DNA of 64,000 nt from Euzebya tangerina (GTDB lineage: Bacteria > Actinomycetota > Nitriliruptoria > Euzebyales > Euzebyaceae). The notes beneath the pieces were generated by a model. It did not search any database. It was not told the DNA's origin and saw only the letters and a list, made by a program, of their open reading frames with translations. Position numbers and translations under genes: made by a program. The DNA lies in assembly GCF_003074135.1 (NCBI RefSeq), contig NZ_PPDK01000005.1, forward strand, positions 1 to 64,000. The letters are read 5' to 3'. Each line of letters begins with the position of its first letter. The first letter of the stretch is position 1. Positions 39,254-48,990 of this stretch are shown here, one piece after another.

Positions 39254-39964
39254 CTAGTCGTCGTCCCCATCGTCATCGTCGTCATCCCCATCGTCGTCGT
39301 CCTCGTCGTCATCGTCATCGTCCTCGTCGTCATCGTCATCGTCGTCACGGTCGTCGTCATCGTGTGCCGCGGCGTCGGCGAGGACCTGGTCGCAGATGGC
39401 CCCTGGGCCTCCGAGCGCGACGACACGGTCCGGGTCGAGGCGATCGATCTCCTCGAGCACGACGCCCGGGATCTCGCCGCATGATGGCACCAGGAGGATC
39501 GGGCCGTCGGTCAGCACCCCGCCGGCGACGGCATCCGCGGAGTCATCGGCCCGCGCGAGGTAGGCGGTGTCGGCACCGTCGGAGAACTGGTCTGCGGAGA
39601 TGGCCACTGCCGTGTGGAAGCGGGTGTCGCCGAACAGGCGGGCGGTGACGCGCGAGTCGTCGTCCCCGTTGTCGTCATCGTCGTCGCCTGGACCGTCGTC
39701 ATCGCCCGGACCCTCATCATCGTCATCATCCCCCGGGCCGTCGTCGTCCCCGTTGTCGTCATCGTCGTCGCCAGGGCCGTCATCGTCGCCCGGGCCATCG
39801 TCCTCATCGTCGTCATCATCATCCCCCGGACCGTCGTCATCGTCGTCGCCCTCGCCATCGAAGGTGGGAAGTGCCGGCGCCTGGACGGTGGCCAGGGCTG
39901 CTGACGCGAGCCCCAGGCTCATCAGGACGGCCAAGACCATCGCCAGGTAGGTGTGTCTGCGCAC
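39254..39964 (-). CDS. secreted Asp-rich protein with one cell-wall-binding repeat
   Basis: 236 residues from a GTG with a strong GAGGAG site. A Sec signal peptide (TYLAMVLAVLMSLGLASAALA) is followed by an extremely acidic tract of Asp with Gly-Pro breaks (about residues 36-103), one wall-binding repeat 2 unit (RLFGDTRFHTAVAISADQF to AAAH) and a second Asp-rich tail of about 35 residues. The wall-binding unit should hold the protein on the envelope. The acidic arms could bind Ca2+ or other cations or mimic anionic matrix polymers. No enzymatic motif. It precedes the two giant proteins on the opposite strand. Confidence 0.85.
   Translation of the reverse strand: MRRHTYLAMVLAVLMSLGLASAALATVQAPALPTFDGEGDDDDDGPGDDDDDDEDDGPGDDDGPGDDDDDNGDDDGPGDDDDDEGPGDDDGPGDDDDDNGDDDSRVTARLFGDTRFHTAVAISADQFSDGADTAYLARADDSADAVAGGVLTDGPILLVPSCGEIPGVVLEEIDRLDPDRVVALGGPGAICDQVLADAAAHDDDDRDDDDDDDEDDDDDDEDDDDGDDDDDDGDDD
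39655..39862 (-). repeat. Asp-codon repeat tract (N-terminal acidic region)
   Basis: About 200 bp of GAC/GAT triplets interrupted by GGG/CCG/GGT codons encodes the DDDDDGPGDDDD-type region. A second, shorter tract lies at 39256-39363. Both are prone to slippage, so the length may vary among strains. Confidence 0.8.
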
Positions 39965-40106: not shown

Positions 40107-40144
40107 GCCGGCGGGTGTCGAAACCTTGACGCGACCCCGCCGGC
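40107..40144. other. hairpin in the upstream region of the 1067-residue protein gene
   Basis: An inverted repeat GCCGGCGGG / CCCGCCGGC with an inner GTCG/CGAC extension, broken by one unpaired base, gives a 13-bp stem with an 11-nt loop. It overlaps the -35 box of the promoter at 40126-40154, so it may be an operator or a 5' structure rather than a terminator. Confidence 0.45.
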
Positions 40145-40154
40145 CGTTGATAGT
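40126..40154 (+). promoter_or_regulatory. candidate promoter of the two-gene giant-protein operon
   Basis: TTGACG (40126-40131) and GATAGT (40149-40154) are separated by 17 nt, a good sigma-A-like pair 40 nt upstream of the ATG at 40194. The upstream 11-bp repeat of the polysaccharide elements is absent. Confidence 0.5.
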
Positions 40155-40193: not shown

Positions 40194-43100
40194 ATGCCGA
40201 ATCCGTCAGAACTGCCGCCGCCATCTTTCGCGTTCGGACGCAGACGACTGCTGCAAGGCGGTCTCGTCCTGTTCTCCGCGACCATGCTCGACGCCACGCT
40301 ACCGACCTCGGCATCGGGACAGGAGTTCGCTGGCTTCCAACTGCTGCGCCTGCGTCGGCGTGAGGACCAGCTCAACCTGAATCTGCAGCTCTTCGGTCTG
40401 AACTTCGACGGGCAGCAGCTGACGCGAGGCTCGGGCCGGGCATTCATCGTCGTGGAGTTCCCGCCGCAGCACGTGCTGGAGGAGGCGTTCCTCGAGAGCG
40501 ACCCCGCTCTGGAACCGATCACGCCTGAGACCCGCGGCGGTCAGCAGGTGGGGCTGGGCGTGCGAGCTCGCCTCTCCGGTACCAGCCGACTGGCCTTCCG
40601 GATCCCCGACGACATCGACGCAATACCGCTGACACCGGAGGGCCTGTTCAACTGGGCGGCGTGGACCGCCTCCCTCGTCGGCGCCGCACAGGCGCCGGGG
40701 GCGGCACCGAGCCAGCCCTCCGGCACGCAGACGGCGATCGAGCTGCCCTGGTGGCTGCTGCTCAGTCCGGATGACACCTCCGGTTGGGCGCACTCGGCGA
40801 CCCCGGTCGATCTGGGCGGACCGCGGACGGAGCTGTGGCACACCCGACTCGCGCGCCTGCAGGGCGGCGAGCTGAGCGAGGACTCCCCTCGCCCGGTCCG
40901 CGCGGTCTGGGCGCGTGATCAGGGGTTGGACGAGCACCTCCAGGGTGAGGAGCGGTTGACCGACAGCGGTGTCCCCTTCGCCGATGGTGGCCTGGTCCCC
41001 ATGTACCCGGTGGATCGCGGGGACATCGTGATGTCGACCGCGGGCTGGCCCGGGACGACGGCCTACCGGCTGGACCCCGAGCCGGTCGAGGCCCACCGGT
41101 TGGCGCTGTCGCCCTTCGGTGGGTGGCTCGACTCCACGGGGAACTGGGCGGAGGAGCCCGAGGGGCAGCCGGCATCGACCTCGCTCGAGTCGTGGCGCCA
41201 CATCGCCGCCGTGGGCCGCGACAACTACGTCCGTATCGTCCGTCGCGGGTTCCTGTTCCCCTTCGGTCACCGCGCCTCTCTGGTCCGAGTGACCGAGCGC
41301 CGCTTCACCCCCGTCCAGATCGACGGCCAGACGCGGCAGGTCGCCCTCCTGCGGCAGAAGTTCTTCATCATCGTCCGCGAGCCGGTGCAGACGTACGGCA
41401 CCGGAGTGCCCTTCGGCGGTGCCGCCACACCGTTCGATCGGATCGAGGTGCTCACCCTCACGACACCATCCCTCGACGCGCCCCCGAACGACGTGGCTCC
41501 GGATGTCGGTGTGATCGATCTCCAGGGCGAGGGTCCTGGGGCACCGCCGGAGAACGCATCGGAGGTCTTCGTCCCGGCCATTGATGGAGAACCGTTCCGG
41601 TTCGTCGTGGATGCCCGTGACTACGACGGGGTCCATCACACCTTCACCAGCGCCGTCGCGTTCGTCGAGCTGACCTCCGCGGAGAACGCGGCAGTGATCG
41701 ATCGGCTGATCGACCGGTGGGAGTCGCAGAACCCCGACGGACCACTGCGGCGCTCAGACCTGCAGGGACGCCGCGTCATGCTGAGCGAACCGTCGACCGA
41801 CAAGCCCGGCAACTCCGAGGCCATCACGAACTCGCTGTCGTGGAGCGGCGTTCCCTTCCCCGGACAGCGCCCTGCCTTCTCCCCCTTCCTCTCGTTTGCC
41901 CGCATCGTCCCGGAAGCGGCGGAGGCGATGCTCGGCGGCGCCGTCGGCAGCGACATCCCGATGAGCTACACCGCCGCCTACCTCGACGCCGGCGGTTTCC
42001 TGGGCGGGCCACTGGAGGACGCGGGGGCGTTCATGGCCTTCGCCGACGATCTCGTCGACGAGGTCGCACCCGGGTTGGACTTCGCGGGCAGCGGCAAGTC
42101 CGACCGGAGCGGTGGCTCGGTCAGCCCGGGTCTTGTCATCAGGTCGCTGTCCCGGGCGGTCGGCATCGCCGGCGACCCATCGACGTTGCTGCCCACGGGT
42201 GGCATCGACCTCGCCGCGCTCTTCTCCGACCTGGGCGGCTTCCTCGGCAACATCCTGCTGGAGAACGTGCTCCCGACGGATGTGTCCTTGGAGGAGGGGC
42301 CGTTCGCCCTCGAGAGCCGCCGCGAGGGCGACATCGTGACCAGTCGGATGACGGTGAACTCCGGCCTGGTCGATTGGCCCAGCGACGATCCGGTCTTCCT
42401 GGCATCGGAGGGCACACCCGCCAAGCTGCTGATCGAGGTCACCAACGTCGTCCCGCTGACCAACCCGCAGGCGGCCACCACCGACATCGTCGGCGAGGTC
42501 ACGAACTTCTCGATCATCCTCTTCGGCCCCGTCCCGTTCATCCAGGTCGACTTCTCCGCGCTGACCTTCGAGGCTCGGCCGGGCCAGAGCCCCACCGTCG
42601 ATCCGGGCATCATCGACGTCTTCCCGCCGGACAACAGTCCGCTCAACTTCATCGATCAGGTCCTCAGCCTGCTGCCCACCGACACCTTCGGGTTCGACGT
42701 CGACATCTCCGCGGCCGGCGTCACGGCAGGGCTCGACACCACCTTCCCGACCATCACCATCGGGGCCCTGCAGATCCACCAGCCCAATCTGGGCGTGGCG
42801 GTCACGATCCCGTTCAACGGCGACCCGTTCGCTCTGCGCTTCAACCTGGGCCGGCGGGACCTGCCCATCGCGGTGACCTACCTCGCCCTGGGCGGCGGGT
42901 TCTGGTTCGAGGTCGAGGTCACGGGCAGCACCGTCATCCTGCTCACCGTCGGCATCGAGGTCCGCGCGTCCGCCGAGGTCGGGGTCGGCCCGTTCAAGGC
43001 CAAGGGCAGCATCGCCGTCGGCATCTTCTTCTCGATCGAGAACAAGGACGGCCAGGAATCGGCCATCCTCGGCGGCTACATCCGCGCCGAGGTCGAGGTC

Positions 43101-43397
43101 AACGTCCTGATCCTCGGTGTCCACATCACCTTCGAGCTGGTGATGACCTACGACTTCAACAGCAACCAGGCCACCGGCCGCGCAACCGTGGAGATCGAAG
43201 TCGAGATCGCCTTCATCGGCTTCTCCTGGTCGATCGAGGTGGAACGCAAGATCGGCGGCGGTGGCGGCGGAGGCGGCGGCCTCCGCCAAGGCCAGGCCGC
43301 GGGCTTCCTGGGACCCACCGCAACACCCCGGTTCGGTGACACCCTTGCCGAGGGGGACTGGGCGGCGTACTGCGACGCCTTCGCACCAGTGGCGTAG
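40194..43397 (+). CDS. large Tat-signal protein of unknown function
   Basis: 1067 residues, start supported by GAGGGAG. The N-terminus FGRRRLLQGGLVLFSATMLDATLPTSASG is a Tat-type signal (twin Arg, hydrophobic stretch, AxG-like site). The middle (about 60-600) is beta-rich with no family I can name. The last 250 residues are a long run of alternating short amphipathic strands (FWFEVEVTGSTVILLTVGIEV, GVHITFELVMTYDFN, ATVEIEVEIAFIGFSWSIEVE), ending in a poly-Gly stretch, as in extended beta-sheet or lipid-groove folds. It is co-transcribed with the 1851-residue gene 37 nt downstream. It is probably exported folded and may bind or carry that partner; this is inference. Confidence 0.7.
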   Translation: MPNPSELPPPSFAFGRRRLLQGGLVLFSATMLDATLPTSASGQEFAGFQLLRLRRREDQLNLNLQLFGLNFDGQQLTRGSGRAFIVVEFPPQHVLEEAFLESDPALEPITPETRGGQQVGLGVRARLSGTSRLAFRIPDDIDAIPLTPEGLFNWAAWTASLVGAAQAPGAAPSQPSGTQTAIELPWWLLLSPDDTSGWAHSATPVDLGGPRTELWHTRLARLQGGELSEDSPRPVRAVWARDQGLDEHLQGEERLTDSGVPFADGGLVPMYPVDRGDIVMSTAGWPGTTAYRLDPEPVEAHRLALSPFGGWLDSTGNWAEEPEGQPASTSLESWRHIAAVGRDNYVRIVRRGFLFPFGHRASLVRVTERRFTPVQIDGQTRQVALLRQKFFIIVREPVQTYGTGVPFGGAATPFDRIEVLTLTTPSLDAPPNDVAPDVGVIDLQGEGPGAPPENASEVFVPAIDGEPFRFVVDARDYDGVHHTFTSAVAFVELTSAENAAVIDRLIDRWESQNPDGPLRRSDLQGRRVMLSEPSTDKPGNSEAITNSLSWSGVPFPGQRPAFSPFLSFARIVPEAAEAMLGGAVGSDIPMSYTAAYLDAGGFLGGPLEDAGAFMAFADDLVDEVAPGLDFAGSGKSDRSGGSVSPGLVIRSLSRAVGIAGDPSTLLPTGGIDLAALFSDLGGFLGNILLENVLPTDVSLEEGPFALESRREGDIVTSRMTVNSGLVDWPSDDPVFLASEGTPAKLLIEVTNVVPLTNPQAATTDIVGEVTNFSIILFGPVPFIQVDFSALTFEARPGQSPTVDPGIIDVFPPDNSPLNFIDQVLSLLPTDTFGFDVDISAAGVTAGLDTTFPTITIGALQIHQPNLGVAVTIPFNGDPFALRFNLGRRDLPIAVTYLALGGGFWFEVEVTGSTVILLTVGIEVRASAEVGVGPFKAKGSIAVGIFFSIENKDGQESAILGGYIRAEVEVNVLILGVHITFELVMTYDFNSNQATGRATVEIEVEIAFIGFSWSIEVERKIGGGGGGGGGLRQGQAAGFLGPTATPRFGDTLAEGDWAAYCDAFAPVA

Positions 43398-43434
43398 CAC
43401 GGACACACGCAAGCAAAGGACAGAGGGATCCACC

Positions 43435-46400
43435 ATGAGTCAACTGACCTGGACCGTCCTCCCGAACGGGATCACCGACGACGGCACCATCGCCCGGCTG
43501 AGCGTGCACCTCGACATCACCACCGTCGAGGGGAGCCTGGTCGACCACGAGGAGTTCCTGACGGGCGACTCCCCGTCCTGGCCCCCGGATGACATCACCT
43601 TCGATGTCGTGATCGGCCCACTCGGCGGTGCCGAGTCCGAGATCACGCGCCTGACGGCCACACCGGTGGAGCTGGCCGACTCCGCCACCTGGGGTGAGCT
43701 GTTCGAGCCGGACTCGCCGAGCAGTGACGAGCCGTTCGTGGACCGGACCGACGTCCCGATCCACACCTATCCCTCCGCCCAGTTGGCCGACTTCATCCGT
43801 GACGCCTACGTGGACGCGGCCGTGCGTGCGCCGGAGACCGGGCCCAAGCGCTGCGATCTGCTGGCGCGGGGATGGCGGAACCTGGCCTTCACCACGCCCG
43901 CCGGCAACCGGCTGGAACAGCCAGTCCGGGACGCGCTGGACACCATCCACGCCGGGGAGGCTGACGGCCCGCCGGTCGTCGACACCAGGTCCGGACAGAC
44001 GTTCTCGCAGATCGACGCGCTGGTGGCGGCACCCCTCGAGACGGTGGCGTTCGCCCAACTGCGGGACTACTACACGCCGCCAGACCTGAACGACGAGCTC
44101 GTGGCTGCGGCGTACGCCCAGCCACTGGCGCCTCTGGGGCTCAACCTGCGGCGAGCCATCTCGGCCATCAACGCCCAACCCTTCCTCCAACGGCTCTTCG
44201 GGCTCGTGTTCGATCTGGAGATTCCACTGCCGGCGCCGCGGGGCGACCAGCCGGTGTACGTCGTGCCGCGCTCCTCCCGCCTGGCGACCTCACGGAACCG
44301 CCTCCCCGCGACCATGACGGACACCACCACGTGGCTGGCCCGGCCACGAGCGGGCAGCGACTACGCCGACGGCTACTTGCGGCTCGAGGAGCCCGAGACC
44401 GGCAAGGTCATCGACTTCGACCTGGACGGCGGCGCCCTGGGTGCCACCATCTTCGCCGGGACGCTGCTGACCGTCGAGCAGAACCTGACCATCGACACGC
44501 CGGAGACCACGAACCTCCCCGCCCTCCGCAATCAGGGACTGATGGTCACCCGGCCCGGCAACGCCGCGACACTCCACGCCGTGCTCGTGGCCGGATTGGC
44601 GGCCCAGGAGCCGTTGAACAACGGCCAGCTGATCCTGTTCGCGGACGACCTCGTCCGGGGCTTGCGGTTCGACGTCCGCCGGGACGAGGGTTCCTGGCAG
44701 TCGCTGATGCGTCGCTCCTCGACGTACGTCTTCCCCGGGACGCTGGGCGAGGTGACCATCGACGACGAAGAGGGGTACATCCCCCGGACGCCGAGTGCCA
44801 GGCCCGGCAGCCCGGACTGGTATCTATCGGAGACGCTCCTGTGGTGGGATGGCTGGAGCCCCATCCTTCCCAGGCCGGGTCGTGTCCTGAACGCCGACCT
44901 CGAGGACGCCGACGTGGCGGTGGAGCCGCCGACCAATGACGAGCCCGATCCGGACTTCCCGGTCTTGACCAGCCACGGCCTCGTTCCTGGGTCTCAGACG
45001 GCGCTGCGGGCCGGGAGTCAGTACACCTTCCGTGCCCGGATCGTCGACCTGGCCGGCAACTCCGTCCCGGTCGACGACAACGCAAGCCACGCCACCGAGC
45101 CGGTCATCTACCGCCGCTTCCAGCCTCTCAACCCGCCCGACCTTGCGCTGCGGACCTCTCCAGGTGCAGGCGAGGACGTCACCACGGTCGTCCTGCGAAG
45201 CGACGTGGACACCGACCCGAGCCCGGCGACGTCACAGCGGCACCTCGTTCCGCCGCGGTCGGAGTACACCCAAGCTGAGATCCTGGGTCTGCTGGATCGG
45301 CCGGACGGCACACCTGACCCGGCGCGGTACGCCGAGCTGGCCCAGCGGGATGCGGCAGACCTGTCAACCGTGCCCGGCGCCACCCCAGACCCTGACCGCC
45401 CCGGCGTCCTGCTGTACGGCCAGGAGACCATCACCATCGACTGGTTGGCCGACCCCTGGATCGGTGACATGAACCTGCGGGTGCTCGACGGCCCCTACGC
45501 CGACGCCATCGCCCAACTGCCCATCACGGGGATCAGCCGGCGCCTGATCGTCAACCAGGGGGATGCTGAGCCGACCGCCGGGGCCGCCGGCTTCACCGTG
45601 CCGCTCCGGAAGGCCGACATCGTTCACGTCAGGCTGACCTCGGTGCCGGTGGATGAGACCGTCGACCTCCTCGGCATCCAGGGGTGGATGCGGGACGACC
45701 TCGACCCCGCGCAGATCCAGGACACGCTGGCACTGATCGCAACCGGTCGACACGTGATGGTGTCCCCGCCCCGTGACCTGACGTTGGTGCACGCCGTCAG
45801 GCGTCCGCTGCTCGTGCCCGGCTTCGCCGACGGCTCGCCGACGATCTTTCGTCGTCCAGACGCCACCTGGGCGGGGCTGGGCGGCACCATCGAGTTCCAC
45901 CGTCGCTCCACGGTGCAGTTGGAGATCGGGGCCTCATGGGAGGAGTACACCGACGCAGGGCCCGGGGGACCGCCACCCACGGACCCCGACGGCCCGGACG
46001 GCGTGGCGCCGATCGCCACGCGCGATGGGTCGGCGGTGGTGCTGGGCCAACTCGACTACGACGGGACCGACGAGATCGATCTGGCCTTCGACACCCGCCA
46101 GGAGTTCGGCGACACCCGTCATCGACAGGTCGCCTACGACATCACCGCCACCAGCCGATTCGTGGAGTACTTCGCCGAGCGCGTCAGCCCAGATCCCACC
46201 TGGCAGCCGGGAACGGAGATCGCCGATCTCGGTCCGCAACTCCAGGCGGATGAGGAAGTCGTGCCCGGGTCGATCACGGTCATCGCGCAGTTGCCCGGCG
46301 GGGCACCTGACCAGCCGCTTCGCGAGGTGAAGCTGGTCGAGCGCCGCGAACGCAGCGACGGCAGCGGCCCCACGCCAGGACACTATGTGGTCGATCGGGA

Positions 46401-48990
46401 GGACTGGATCGTGTCAGCGGTCAGCGCCGGGGAGGCAGCCGCACCGACCCTGGCAGCAATCCCCGACGGCACCCCGCTGAAGGTCCTCTACACCCTCCCT
46501 CCCGTGGTGCAGGAGTCGGGCCAGACGGAGCTCATCTCGGTGCCCGCCTCGGCCCGGCCACAGAGTCCGGTGGTCAAGTGGGTCGTCCCGGCCTTCGATC
46601 TGACTCACCAGCAGTCGGACAGCACGGTGGCCTCCGTCCGTGAGGGCGGCTGGCTTCGGGTCTATCTCGACCGACCGTGGTGGACCTCTGGCGAAAGCGA
46701 GATGCTCGGCGTGCTGACCTACCCCGCCGCCGAGCTGCAGGGCACGGCAGCAGTCGACCTCCCTGCTGACGACCCCCTACGGCCCTACGTGACCCAGTGG
46801 GGCGAGGACCCGGTCCTGTCCGGCGAGCCACTCCCACTGCGGTATCCGCCCATGGGTGCCTTTCCCGAGGCCCAGGTGACCGAGTACGGGGTGCGACTCG
46901 CCGAGGACCCCGGAGCCGCACCCCGGCCGCGTGGCCCGATTGCCTCCCTCGCGGCCCAGAGCCCCCCGCCACTGGCCGTGAACGTCGCCGGCCACGCTCC
47001 TGTCTATGACGCAGACCGAGATCTGTGGGCGGTCGACGTCAAGGTCCTCGGGGGACGGGCGTACCGGCCGTTCACCCGACTGGCGTTGGCCCGGTACCAG
47101 CCGGAGTCCCTCACGGGTCTGGAGCTCTCCGAGGTGGTCCTCGCCGACCTCATCCAGCTGGACCCCGACCGGTTCGTCAGCGTGACCCTACTCGAGGACT
47201 TCCGGTTGGCGGTTGCCCTCAGCGGCATCACCTACACCGAGGCCGCGCCGGGCACGCCGCTGATCGGGCGTGCCTACGCAACCGTCGAGGTCCTTCGGGA
47301 CGGCTTCACGACCGAGGACCCCCAAGAGGTGGCGTACGACTCGCTGGCCGGATCCGGCCGTCAACTGCTGGAGAGCGGCCCAGCCGTAGATGGGGTTGCG
47401 GCGTGGACGGGGCAGCTCGGTGTTGCTGCCGGACAAGACATCCGGGTTGTCTTCGAGCAGTACGAGCTCATCCCGGTCCAAACATCGGCGGGCGGAATCG
47501 CCGAATTTCCTGGCGAACGGCTGGTGCACACCGACACCATCCGGCTGCGCATACCTGACGACGCCAGCGACCTGGTGATCGTCACACCGGACACACTGGA
47601 GGGACCCATCACTGGGCTGCCGGAGATCGTGGACCCCGTTCCGGCCCCGCCGCCCGCGACGGTTGTCCTGGTCGCGTTGGACTTCGGCCCCGATCCGTCG
47701 CAGCAACTCGTCGTGCCGCGCCAGGGATCGACATCGGGTGAGGGCGCCGGAAGCACCGGGCAGTTCGCGGGGCCCGCCGACGGCGCGGTGGCTGCGGTGC
47801 GGTTCAGCGACGCCTCTGGAGCCGGGAGCCTGACCGTCCGAACCATCGAGGAACGCCCCGGCGGCCTGGGCCTCGGGATCACACCCATCGGCCCGGCCGT
47901 GACCGTGATCGCCTCCGGGGTCACGCACGGCACCGTGGAGGTCGACCTGCCCGCGCCGGGCAACGGTCCCGAACGGGTCTACCAACAAGTCGGCCGCACC
48001 TGGGTTGACGTCACCCTCGCTCGTTCGGACGGCGTCGTCACGGCCTCGAGCAACTCCCTGTCGACCTTCGTGGTGGGCCTCCCCACCGGGTATCGCCGCT
48101 TCGCCGGGCCCGACCGGATCGCCACGGCCATCGCCATCTCCGAGGCGACGTTCGCACCGGGTGTGCGGCGCGCATATCTGGCGACGGCCGGCAACTTCCC
48201 GGATGCCCTGGCTGCCGGTCCTCCCGCGTCCATGGCCAACTCGCCGGTGCTGCTGGTCGGCGACTCGCTCTCGCCGCTCACGGGGGAGGAGCTGGTGCGC
48301 CTGGACCCCTGCGAGGTCGTGATCCTGGGCAGCACGGCGGCTGTCTCCGAGACGGTGGCCGAGCAGGTCCGCGCACTCGGCTTCGGCGTCCGGCGGGTCG
48401 CCGGCCCCGAGCGCTTCTCCACCGCGGCGGCCATCTCAGAGGACGCCTTCCCGAACGGGGCCAGCATCGCCTACATCGCCACGGGCGAGGCGTTCCCGGA
48501 TGCGCTGGCCGGTGGCACAGCCGCAGCTCGCGATCGTGCCCCGATGCTGCTGGTCCAGCGCGATGGCCTCCCGGCCCCGACTGAGGCCGAGCTGAGGCGA
48601 CTGTCTCCCTCCCGGATCGTGATCCTGGGCGGGGAGGCAGCCGTCTCGGCTGCCGTGGCCGACCAACTCGGGGCGCTGGGTGGGGCTCGGGTCGAGCGCT
48701 ACGCCGGGCCTGACCGCTTCTCGACAGCCGCCGCGGTGGCGGCGTCGTTCGGGACCGCGAAGACCGTCTTCGTGGCGACTGGCAACGAGTTCCCCGATGC
48801 GCTGGCCGGTGTGCCGGCCGCTGGGATCGAGCGGGCCGCGCTGGTGCTGGTCCAGCCAGACGCCGTGCCCGATGTGGCCGCCACCCAGCTGTCGCGGCTG
48901 CGCCCGGACCAGATCGTGGTGTTGGGCGGGACCGCCGCCGTCGGTGCGGAGCTCGACGGCATCCTGCAGCAGTACTTGGCCACGGCCTAG
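43435..48990 (+). CDS. giant protein with three C-terminal cell-wall-binding repeats, no visible signal peptide
   Basis: 1851 residues; the ATG at 43435 has GAGGGA 10 nt upstream. Residues about 1-1540 are unlike any family I know, with a conserved-looking aromatic block SETLLWWDGWSPILPRPGR and QYTFRARIVDLAGNSV, an Ig-like signature. The last 300 residues are three wall-binding repeat 2 units (RFAGPDRIATAIAISEATF; VAGPERFSTAAAISEDAF; YAGPDRFSTAAAVAASF), each of about 98 residues. It therefore should sit on the cell wall. The N-terminus (MSQLTWTVLPNGITDDG) has no Sec or Tat signal, even in the upstream in-frame extension, so export may depend on its Tat-signal neighbour or another route. Confidence 0.75.
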   Translation: MSQLTWTVLPNGITDDGTIARLSVHLDITTVEGSLVDHEEFLTGDSPSWPPDDITFDVVIGPLGGAESEITRLTATPVELADSATWGELFEPDSPSSDEPFVDRTDVPIHTYPSAQLADFIRDAYVDAAVRAPETGPKRCDLLARGWRNLAFTTPAGNRLEQPVRDALDTIHAGEADGPPVVDTRSGQTFSQIDALVAAPLETVAFAQLRDYYTPPDLNDELVAAAYAQPLAPLGLNLRRAISAINAQPFLQRLFGLVFDLEIPLPAPRGDQPVYVVPRSSRLATSRNRLPATMTDTTTWLARPRAGSDYADGYLRLEEPETGKVIDFDLDGGALGATIFAGTLLTVEQNLTIDTPETTNLPALRNQGLMVTRPGNAATLHAVLVAGLAAQEPLNNGQLILFADDLVRGLRFDVRRDEGSWQSLMRRSSTYVFPGTLGEVTIDDEEGYIPRTPSARPGSPDWYLSETLLWWDGWSPILPRPGRVLNADLEDADVAVEPPTNDEPDPDFPVLTSHGLVPGSQTALRAGSQYTFRARIVDLAGNSVPVDDNASHATEPVIYRRFQPLNPPDLALRTSPGAGEDVTTVVLRSDVDTDPSPATSQRHLVPPRSEYTQAEILGLLDRPDGTPDPARYAELAQRDAADLSTVPGATPDPDRPGVLLYGQETITIDWLADPWIGDMNLRVLDGPYADAIAQLPITGISRRLIVNQGDAEPTAGAAGFTVPLRKADIVHVRLTSVPVDETVDLLGIQGWMRDDLDPAQIQDTLALIATGRHVMVSPPRDLTLVHAVRRPLLVPGFADGSPTIFRRPDATWAGLGGTIEFHRRSTVQLEIGASWEEYTDAGPGGPPPTDPDGPDGVAPIATRDGSAVVLGQLDYDGTDEIDLAFDTRQEFGDTRHRQVAYDITATSRFVEYFAERVSPDPTWQPGTEIADLGPQLQADEEVVPGSITVIAQLPGGAPDQPLREVKLVERRERSDGSGPTPGHYVVDREDWIVSAVSAGEAAAPTLAAIPDGTPLKVLYTLPPVVQESGQTELISVPASARPQSPVVKWVVPAFDLTHQQSDSTVASVREGGWLRVYLDRPWWTSGESEMLGVLTYPAAELQGTAAVDLPADDPLRPYVTQWGEDPVLSGEPLPLRYPPMGAFPEAQVTEYGVRLAEDPGAAPRPRGPIASLAAQSPPPLAVNVAGHAPVYDADRDLWAVDVKVLGGRAYRPFTRLALARYQPESLTGLELSEVVLADLIQLDPDRFVSVTLLEDFRLAVALSGITYTEAAPGTPLIGRAYATVEVLRDGFTTEDPQEVAYDSLAGSGRQLLESGPAVDGVAAWTGQLGVAAGQDIRVVFEQYELIPVQTSAGGIAEFPGERLVHTDTIRLRIPDDASDLVIVTPDTLEGPITGLPEIVDPVPAPPPATVVLVALDFGPDPSQQLVVPRQGSTSGEGAGSTGQFAGPADGAVAAVRFSDASGAGSLTVRTIEERPGGLGLGITPIGPAVTVIASGVTHGTVEVDLPAPGNGPERVYQQVGRTWVDVTLARSDGVVTASSNSLSTFVVGLPTGYRRFAGPDRIATAIAISEATFAPGVRRAYLATAGNFPDALAAGPPASMANSPVLLVGDSLSPLTGEELVRLDPCEVVILGSTAAVSETVAEQVRALGFGVRRVAGPERFSTAAAISEDAFPNGASIAYIATGEAFPDALAGGTAAARDRAPMLLVQRDGLPAPTEAELRRLSPSRIVILGGEAAVSAAVADQLGALGGARVERYAGPDRFSTAAAVAASFGTAKTVFVATGNEFPDALAGVPAAGIERAALVLVQPDAVPDVAATQLSRLRPDQIVVLGGTAAVGAELDGILQQYLATA

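Follow-up and report, generated by a model that had tools for sequence, protein, structure and literature searches.

The locus described here raises the question of how a giant protein that carries cell-wall-binding repeats and no signal peptide could reach the wall, and whether the giant protein encoded directly before it has a part in this.

Results

Gene layout

The window (the whole 64,000-nucleotide stretch of Euzebya tangerina DNA that was analysed) contains two long open reading frames on the forward strand. Gene A (40194–43397) encodes a Tat-signal protein of 1067 residues (114 kDa) that belongs to a family of relatives, and gene B (43435–48990) encodes a protein of 1851 residues (196 kDa) without a signal peptide. 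B starts with the ATG at 43435, 37 nt after the end of A, and the two products together amount to about 310 kDa. These positions, sizes and the gap agree with the original prediction, which had also placed both genes under a single promoter. A consensus scan gave one weak sigma-70-like candidate, TTGACG-17-GATAGT (40126–40154, forward strand), that lies 40 nt 5′ of A and matches the consensus at 9 of 12 positions (one found vs 0.3 expected). Between A and B, consensus matching showed no promoter-like and no terminator-like site. Since these are consensus matches only, transcription of A and B from a single promoter is plausible. It may be noted that the divergent neighbour (39254–39964, reverse strand) encodes a 236-residue protein with a Sec signal, in which long acidic runs rich in Asp and Gly flank a single CWB2-like stretch.

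The host genome has no paralogue of A or B, save for matches to the CWB2 part of B. When A and B were compared with Pfam, NCBIfam, PHROGs, PADLOC and PDB sequences, no convincing match appeared outside CWB2; beyond CWB2-related matches, the family libraries returned one weak FN3-type match. Family profiles of A and B found no relatives in the PDB, and a limited search of the open-access literature gave no description of the pair. The earlier statement that neither protein matches a known family over most of its length is thus borne out.

A and B occur as a pair

Relatives of B were collected by scanning GTDB, with each species represented by one genome, for conserved motifs. The alignment of A did not have enough conserved stretches for a genome-wide scan, and hence that of B was used. 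The scan gave at least 290 confirmed relatives in about a dozen phyla, from which the best 80 were kept for further analysis. In 70 of the 72 loci where the start of B is complete, A was found directly 5′ of B on the same strand; the count becomes 71 when the locus L084, in which the contig ends within A, is included. The median gap between the two frames was 12 nt. The sole B without A, with 10 kb of upstream sequence present, came from a Chlorobiota metagenome-assembled genome (L081), so that homologues are not routinely found alone.

As the scan was run with B, these pairing rates are conditional on B, and a sample of 346 genomes of the window's phylum served as the reverse test. A was present in 11 of them and B in 10; every B-bearing genome also had A. 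In the eleventh A-positive genome (G150) the match was limited to the C-terminal region of A. The distance matrices of A and B were correlated with r = 0.93, compared to a permutation maximum of 0.18. It is strongly supported, therefore, that A and B form a two-gene module with near universal pairing, as had been proposed.

At one locus (L151:4746–5560, reverse strand), the C-terminal amphipathic region of A occurs without the rest of A and with no B nearby; this element may represent either a mobile domain or a gene disrupted by a frameshift.

Distribution and gene neighbourhood

Among the best 80 of the 290 relatives of B, the phyla included Actinomycetota, Chloroflexota, Bacillota, Pseudomonadota, Acidobacteriota, Aminicenantota, Armatimonadota, Balneolota, Bacteroidota, Chlorobiota and Cyanobacteriota. 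A–B is a widespread family that has no entry in the libraries searched, Pfam, NCBIfam and the PDB among them. Plasmid searches showed plasmid-borne pairs in Streptomyces, Rhizobium, Sinorhizobium, Agrobacterium, Ruegeria, Cupriavidus and Diaphorobacter. In a FastTree tree of B, which has some long branches, phyla were interleaved (Bradyrhizobium with Silvibacterium, Paenibacillus with Nonomuraea), and this mixing implies horizontal spread of the pair.

A phage or viral origin was considered and rejected: there was no match in phage records and none in IMG/VR with the B motifs, A being scanned there by one pattern only. An anti-phage defence system was also rejected, as no PADLOC model matched and neighbours such as dpdE/F or an N6-methylase occurred at single plasmid loci only. 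At these, the pair adjoins dpdE/dpdF (L046:26771–30768) or N6-methylase, helicase and nuclease genes (L045), as in defence islands.

No third gene is conserved across lineages; only a Balneolota/Chlorobiota-type group shares a neighbour, a secreted protein of 640–750 residues that lies downstream of the pair (L084, L089, L095, L126) or nearby on the other strand (L085). It appears barrel-like by eye, with an aromatic C-terminal end in those read and no Pfam match in those scanned. Phospholipase-type genes (Tle1-like, patatin, zinc phospholipase C) lie beside four pairs (L101:13309–15681, upstream in L095, L031:20271–22784 and L047:7507–9309), which may be due to chance.

Predicted structure of A

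The N-terminus of A (residues 1–46, GRRRLLQGGLVLFSATML...SASG; 40194–40331) has an RRR motif (GRRRLLQ), a hydrophobic stretch and the end SASG, and is Tat-like. The AlphaFold2 model of A, with a mean pLDDT of 80.4, is below 50 for these 46 residues and ordered afterwards. The Tat-type signal noted earlier for A is confirmed, and the host genome encodes TatC.

Residues 47–600 (40332–41993) form one or more predicted beta-rich domains, mostly with pLDDT above 85, and contain the conserved motif GRD.YVR.V..G.L.PFGHRA.LV.VTER. They are followed by a predicted region of amphipathic beta-strands at residues 704–1020 (42303–43253). When family-averaged hydrophobicity was compared between the two faces of the predicted strands and tested against shuffles, 11 of 17 strands in the C-terminal part were two-faced (P < 0.05), compared to 3 of 18 in the N-terminal part. 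The alternating amphipathic strands that had been noted in A are hence seen mainly at its C-terminal end.

The list of structural matches for A was occupied by its C-terminal part, and in it no relative of the N-terminal domain was prominent. VIA-align gave a porin-like match over about residues 828–1043 of the model; residues 832–1043 aligned with the porin CymA at Z = 14.4 (199 residues aligned, rmsd 4.7), and OmpG gave Z = 12.6. In Foldseek, weaker matches were obtained to microsomal triglyceride transfer protein, apoB100 and BPI-like P47 (E-values 0.007–0.04), and one relative of A had a sub-threshold match to Vit_b-sht_shell (E = 0.19). The region had no match to porins or any other Pfam family at E-values up to 5. 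Like CymA and OmpG, the last 200 residues or so of A are predicted to form an antiparallel amphipathic meander (Z of 12–14). Unlike porins, A has a Tat and not a Sec signal, occurs also in monoderms and lacks a porin family match, and its predicted meander is one domain of a larger protein. The model suggests that this porin-like meander may contact a membrane or lipid.

Core and wall-binding tail of B

Residues 1–1372 of B (43435–47550) correspond to the family core, which begins with the conserved TWTVLPNG, contains predicted FN3/Ig-like domains and ends in ERLVHTDTI. AlphaFold2 was applied to the full-length core homologue of Nonomuraea typhae (L100; pLDDT 88.6), and the fold of the window protein is taken by homology at 32% identity. 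Several FN3/Ig-like domains were predicted, with generic matches to Ig/FN3 arrays (Z at most 9.7). In this general architecture B would resemble fibronectin, mastigoneme proteins and large adhesins, with which no sequence relationship was found. For both A and B, such predicted fold matches speak to shape and not to function.

The core is followed by a Pro-rich linker with a small domain (residues 1373–1552; 47551–48090), where no column was conserved in an alignment with 18 relatives. Three tandem CWB2 repeats complete the protein (48097–48357, 48394–48657 and, with approximate limits, 48694–48954; the third is a further stretch in the Pfam scan). They scored above the Pfam threshold (PF04122, E = 1.8e-46), so the wall-binding repeats of the original prediction are indeed present. 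In C. difficile, wall anchoring needs three tandem CWB2 repeats (PMC4973711), and like the Cwp/SlpA proteins of that organism, B is a very large protein with the repeats at one terminus. Unlike CWB2 wall proteins, it lacks a signal peptide of its own.

The tail is a local addition to the window protein. Relatives of B end near its residue 1372, where the motif R-[LV]-V-Y/H-x-D is conserved, and none of the others examined carried CWB2. In two sister species with genomes just as rich in CWB2 (G002 and G003), the B frames stop at the end of the core. Wall anchoring, therefore, is not a property of the A–B family. Other tails occur elsewhere: in Saccharothrix (L063) B carries an Ig-like Big_3_5 tail, and its A has no Tat signal. 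In Paenibacillus (L069, L123) the C-terminal tail of B is weakly TPR-like, again beside an A without Tat signal. It may be added that the genus and one further family member (G000–G004) have 129 to 163 CWB2 matches listed per genome, an unusually large set of wall proteins; 163 are listed for the host genome.

Export signals

In a motif-plus-hydrophobicity test, Tat-like signals were found in 35 of 67 A frames (and a few more by eye) and in none of 72 B frames. For the B of the window, the longest open frame was also considered, and it too lacks a signal peptide, the in-frame upstream extension being without a hydrophobic segment. This absence, on which the original prediction did not comment, is the most consequential addition to it. 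On the tree of B, the Tat state of A switched at least seven times, and B gained no signal anywhere. A keeps its Tat signal in many phyla.

As a control, CWB2 proteins of the host were checked for signal peptides in a sample of 20 stretches of its genome, along with one further protein of the window; one additional match, cut by the edge of its stretch, was left uncounted. All 21 of the other complete CWB2 proteins had a signal peptide of their own, B of the window being the exception among 22 that could be scored.

On plasmid pC of S. meliloti LMB1, the order of genes is A–B–tatA, with tatA about 50 nt after B (TatA, Pfam E = 2.4e-9). This tatA-like gene (L036:25661–25825) lies beside a conjugation system. 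The long type of Tat-bearing A in rhizobia and Ruegeria is 329–363 kDa alone; in rhizobia the A–B complex would exceed 500 kDa, compared to about 310 kDa in the window organism.

Discussion

If the CWB2 tail is functional, B must leave the cell by a route other than a signal peptide of its own. The simplest such route would be a ride on A through Tat, because the E. coli complexes HybOC and PaoABC, for which Tat hitchhiking is established, travel in this way (PMC4273604). As in those systems, the A and B genes are adjacent, one subunit bears a Tat signal and a signal-less partner is expected outside; unlike them, A–B has no recognised cofactor-enzyme family. We give slightly better than an even chance to the following reading. 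A and B would be two subunits made from one operon that fold and associate in the cytoplasm. The complex would then exit through the Tat translocase on the signal peptide of A, with B as the hitchhiker, and in the window organism the three CWB2 repeats of B would tether it to the wall. Pairing, gene order, co-inheritance, a Tat-like signal confined to A and the CWB2 repeats of B are observed, and the complex, its joint export and its display on the wall are inferred. Also in favour are the Tat state of A, which switches repeatedly on the tree while B stays signal-less, the exceptional lack of a signal on B among the CWB2 proteins checked, TatC in the host and the tatA gene after B on plasmid pC.

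The original prediction had seen in this locus an envelope system with one freely secreted and one wall-anchored part. For the window copy, Tat on A and CWB2 on B agree with an envelope system; wall anchoring does not extend to the family, as no other B examined has CWB2, and about half of the A proteins have no recognisable signal. The division into two separately exported parts probably has to be modified to joint export, since an anchored B without its own signal fits a joint A–B complex better.

Several points count against joint export. A complex of the 114- and 196-kDa proteins would be well above reported Tat cargo: PaoABC, at 135 kDa, was called among the largest exported (PMC4273604), and a review gives up to 150 kDa (PMC6708511). 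Unless it were shielded, the porin-like surface predicted for A would be difficult to maintain in solution inside the cell. Unlike the known hitchhikers, about half of the A proteins lost or never had the Tat signal, so export of the complex need not hold in all hosts; many members of the family may function in the cytoplasm or exit by another route. The Saccharothrix A lacks a Tat signal although its B has an Ig-like tail, which speaks against a simple rule, and the lone B of Chlorobiota is a further exception.

One alternative is that B stays in the cytoplasm, its CWB2 tail being non-functional or a recently fused passenger, and that A is exported alone or the pair is mainly intracellular. 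The confinement of CWB2 to the window copy, within a genus of at least 155 CWB2 matches per genome where the B of sister species lacks it, fits this, as does the TPR-like tail of the Paenibacillus B beside a signal-less A. However, A retains its Tat signal in many phyla, three repeats are kept above the Pfam threshold and every other scorable CWB2 protein that was checked bears a signal, and we regard a cytoplasmic B as unlikely.

We consider it improbable that A leaves by Tat and B by a signal-independent route (lysis, vesicles or a holin), the two meeting only on the wall. The missing signal of B would be accounted for, and such a route would be needed if the complex were external everywhere, given that nearly half of the A relatives are signal-less. 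Yet the constant adjacency, the A-first order and a repeated gain or loss of Tat confined to A fit one exported unit better.

With joint export of A and B as the preferred reading, the C-terminal fold of A offers the leading guess at the role of the complex, namely contact with membrane or lipid. Tentatively, the amphipathic meander may contact a membrane or carry a hydrophobic ligand, with B as an Ig/FN3 rod that positions A. A bolder version, which we think doubtful, would be a horizontally spread apparatus in which a porin-like protein and an Ig/FN3 rod form a megacomplex of between 310 and more than 550 kDa that acts on membranes or lipids outside the cell. It would be the largest folded Tat cargo known and would in some cases have a plasmid-borne TatA of its own.

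A two-component weapon, in which B is a shell or receptor binder and the strands of A enter a target membrane to form a beta-barrel, seems quite improbable. The porin-like match, the strongly two-faced strands, the patchy accessory distribution on plasmids and the phospholipase-type genes at four loci are in its favour; but the searches gave no toxin, RHS or pore-former family, the phospholipase neighbours are few, and a common fold does not show function. As to a Tc-type toxin complex, Pfam scans of A, B and a set of relatives gave no RHS/YD or SpvB-type domain. Equally improbable is a carrier in the manner of large lipid transfer proteins, whose inward-facing greasy groove would hold a lipid or some other hydrophobic ligand. 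The Foldseek matches to triglyceride transfer protein, apoB100 and P47 and the sub-threshold Vit_b-sht_shell match are in its favour; the scores of the fold matches are weak next to those for porins.

Thus, about a dozen phyla share a conserved pair of giant proteins that has no Pfam, NCBIfam or PDB entry. The window copy is a natural experiment, in that a wall anchor has been joined to a signal-less subunit. Joint export, if true, would present the exporter of folded proteins with an unusually large load, and the size of the pair against the reported limit of Tat cargo is the most interesting tension of the system.
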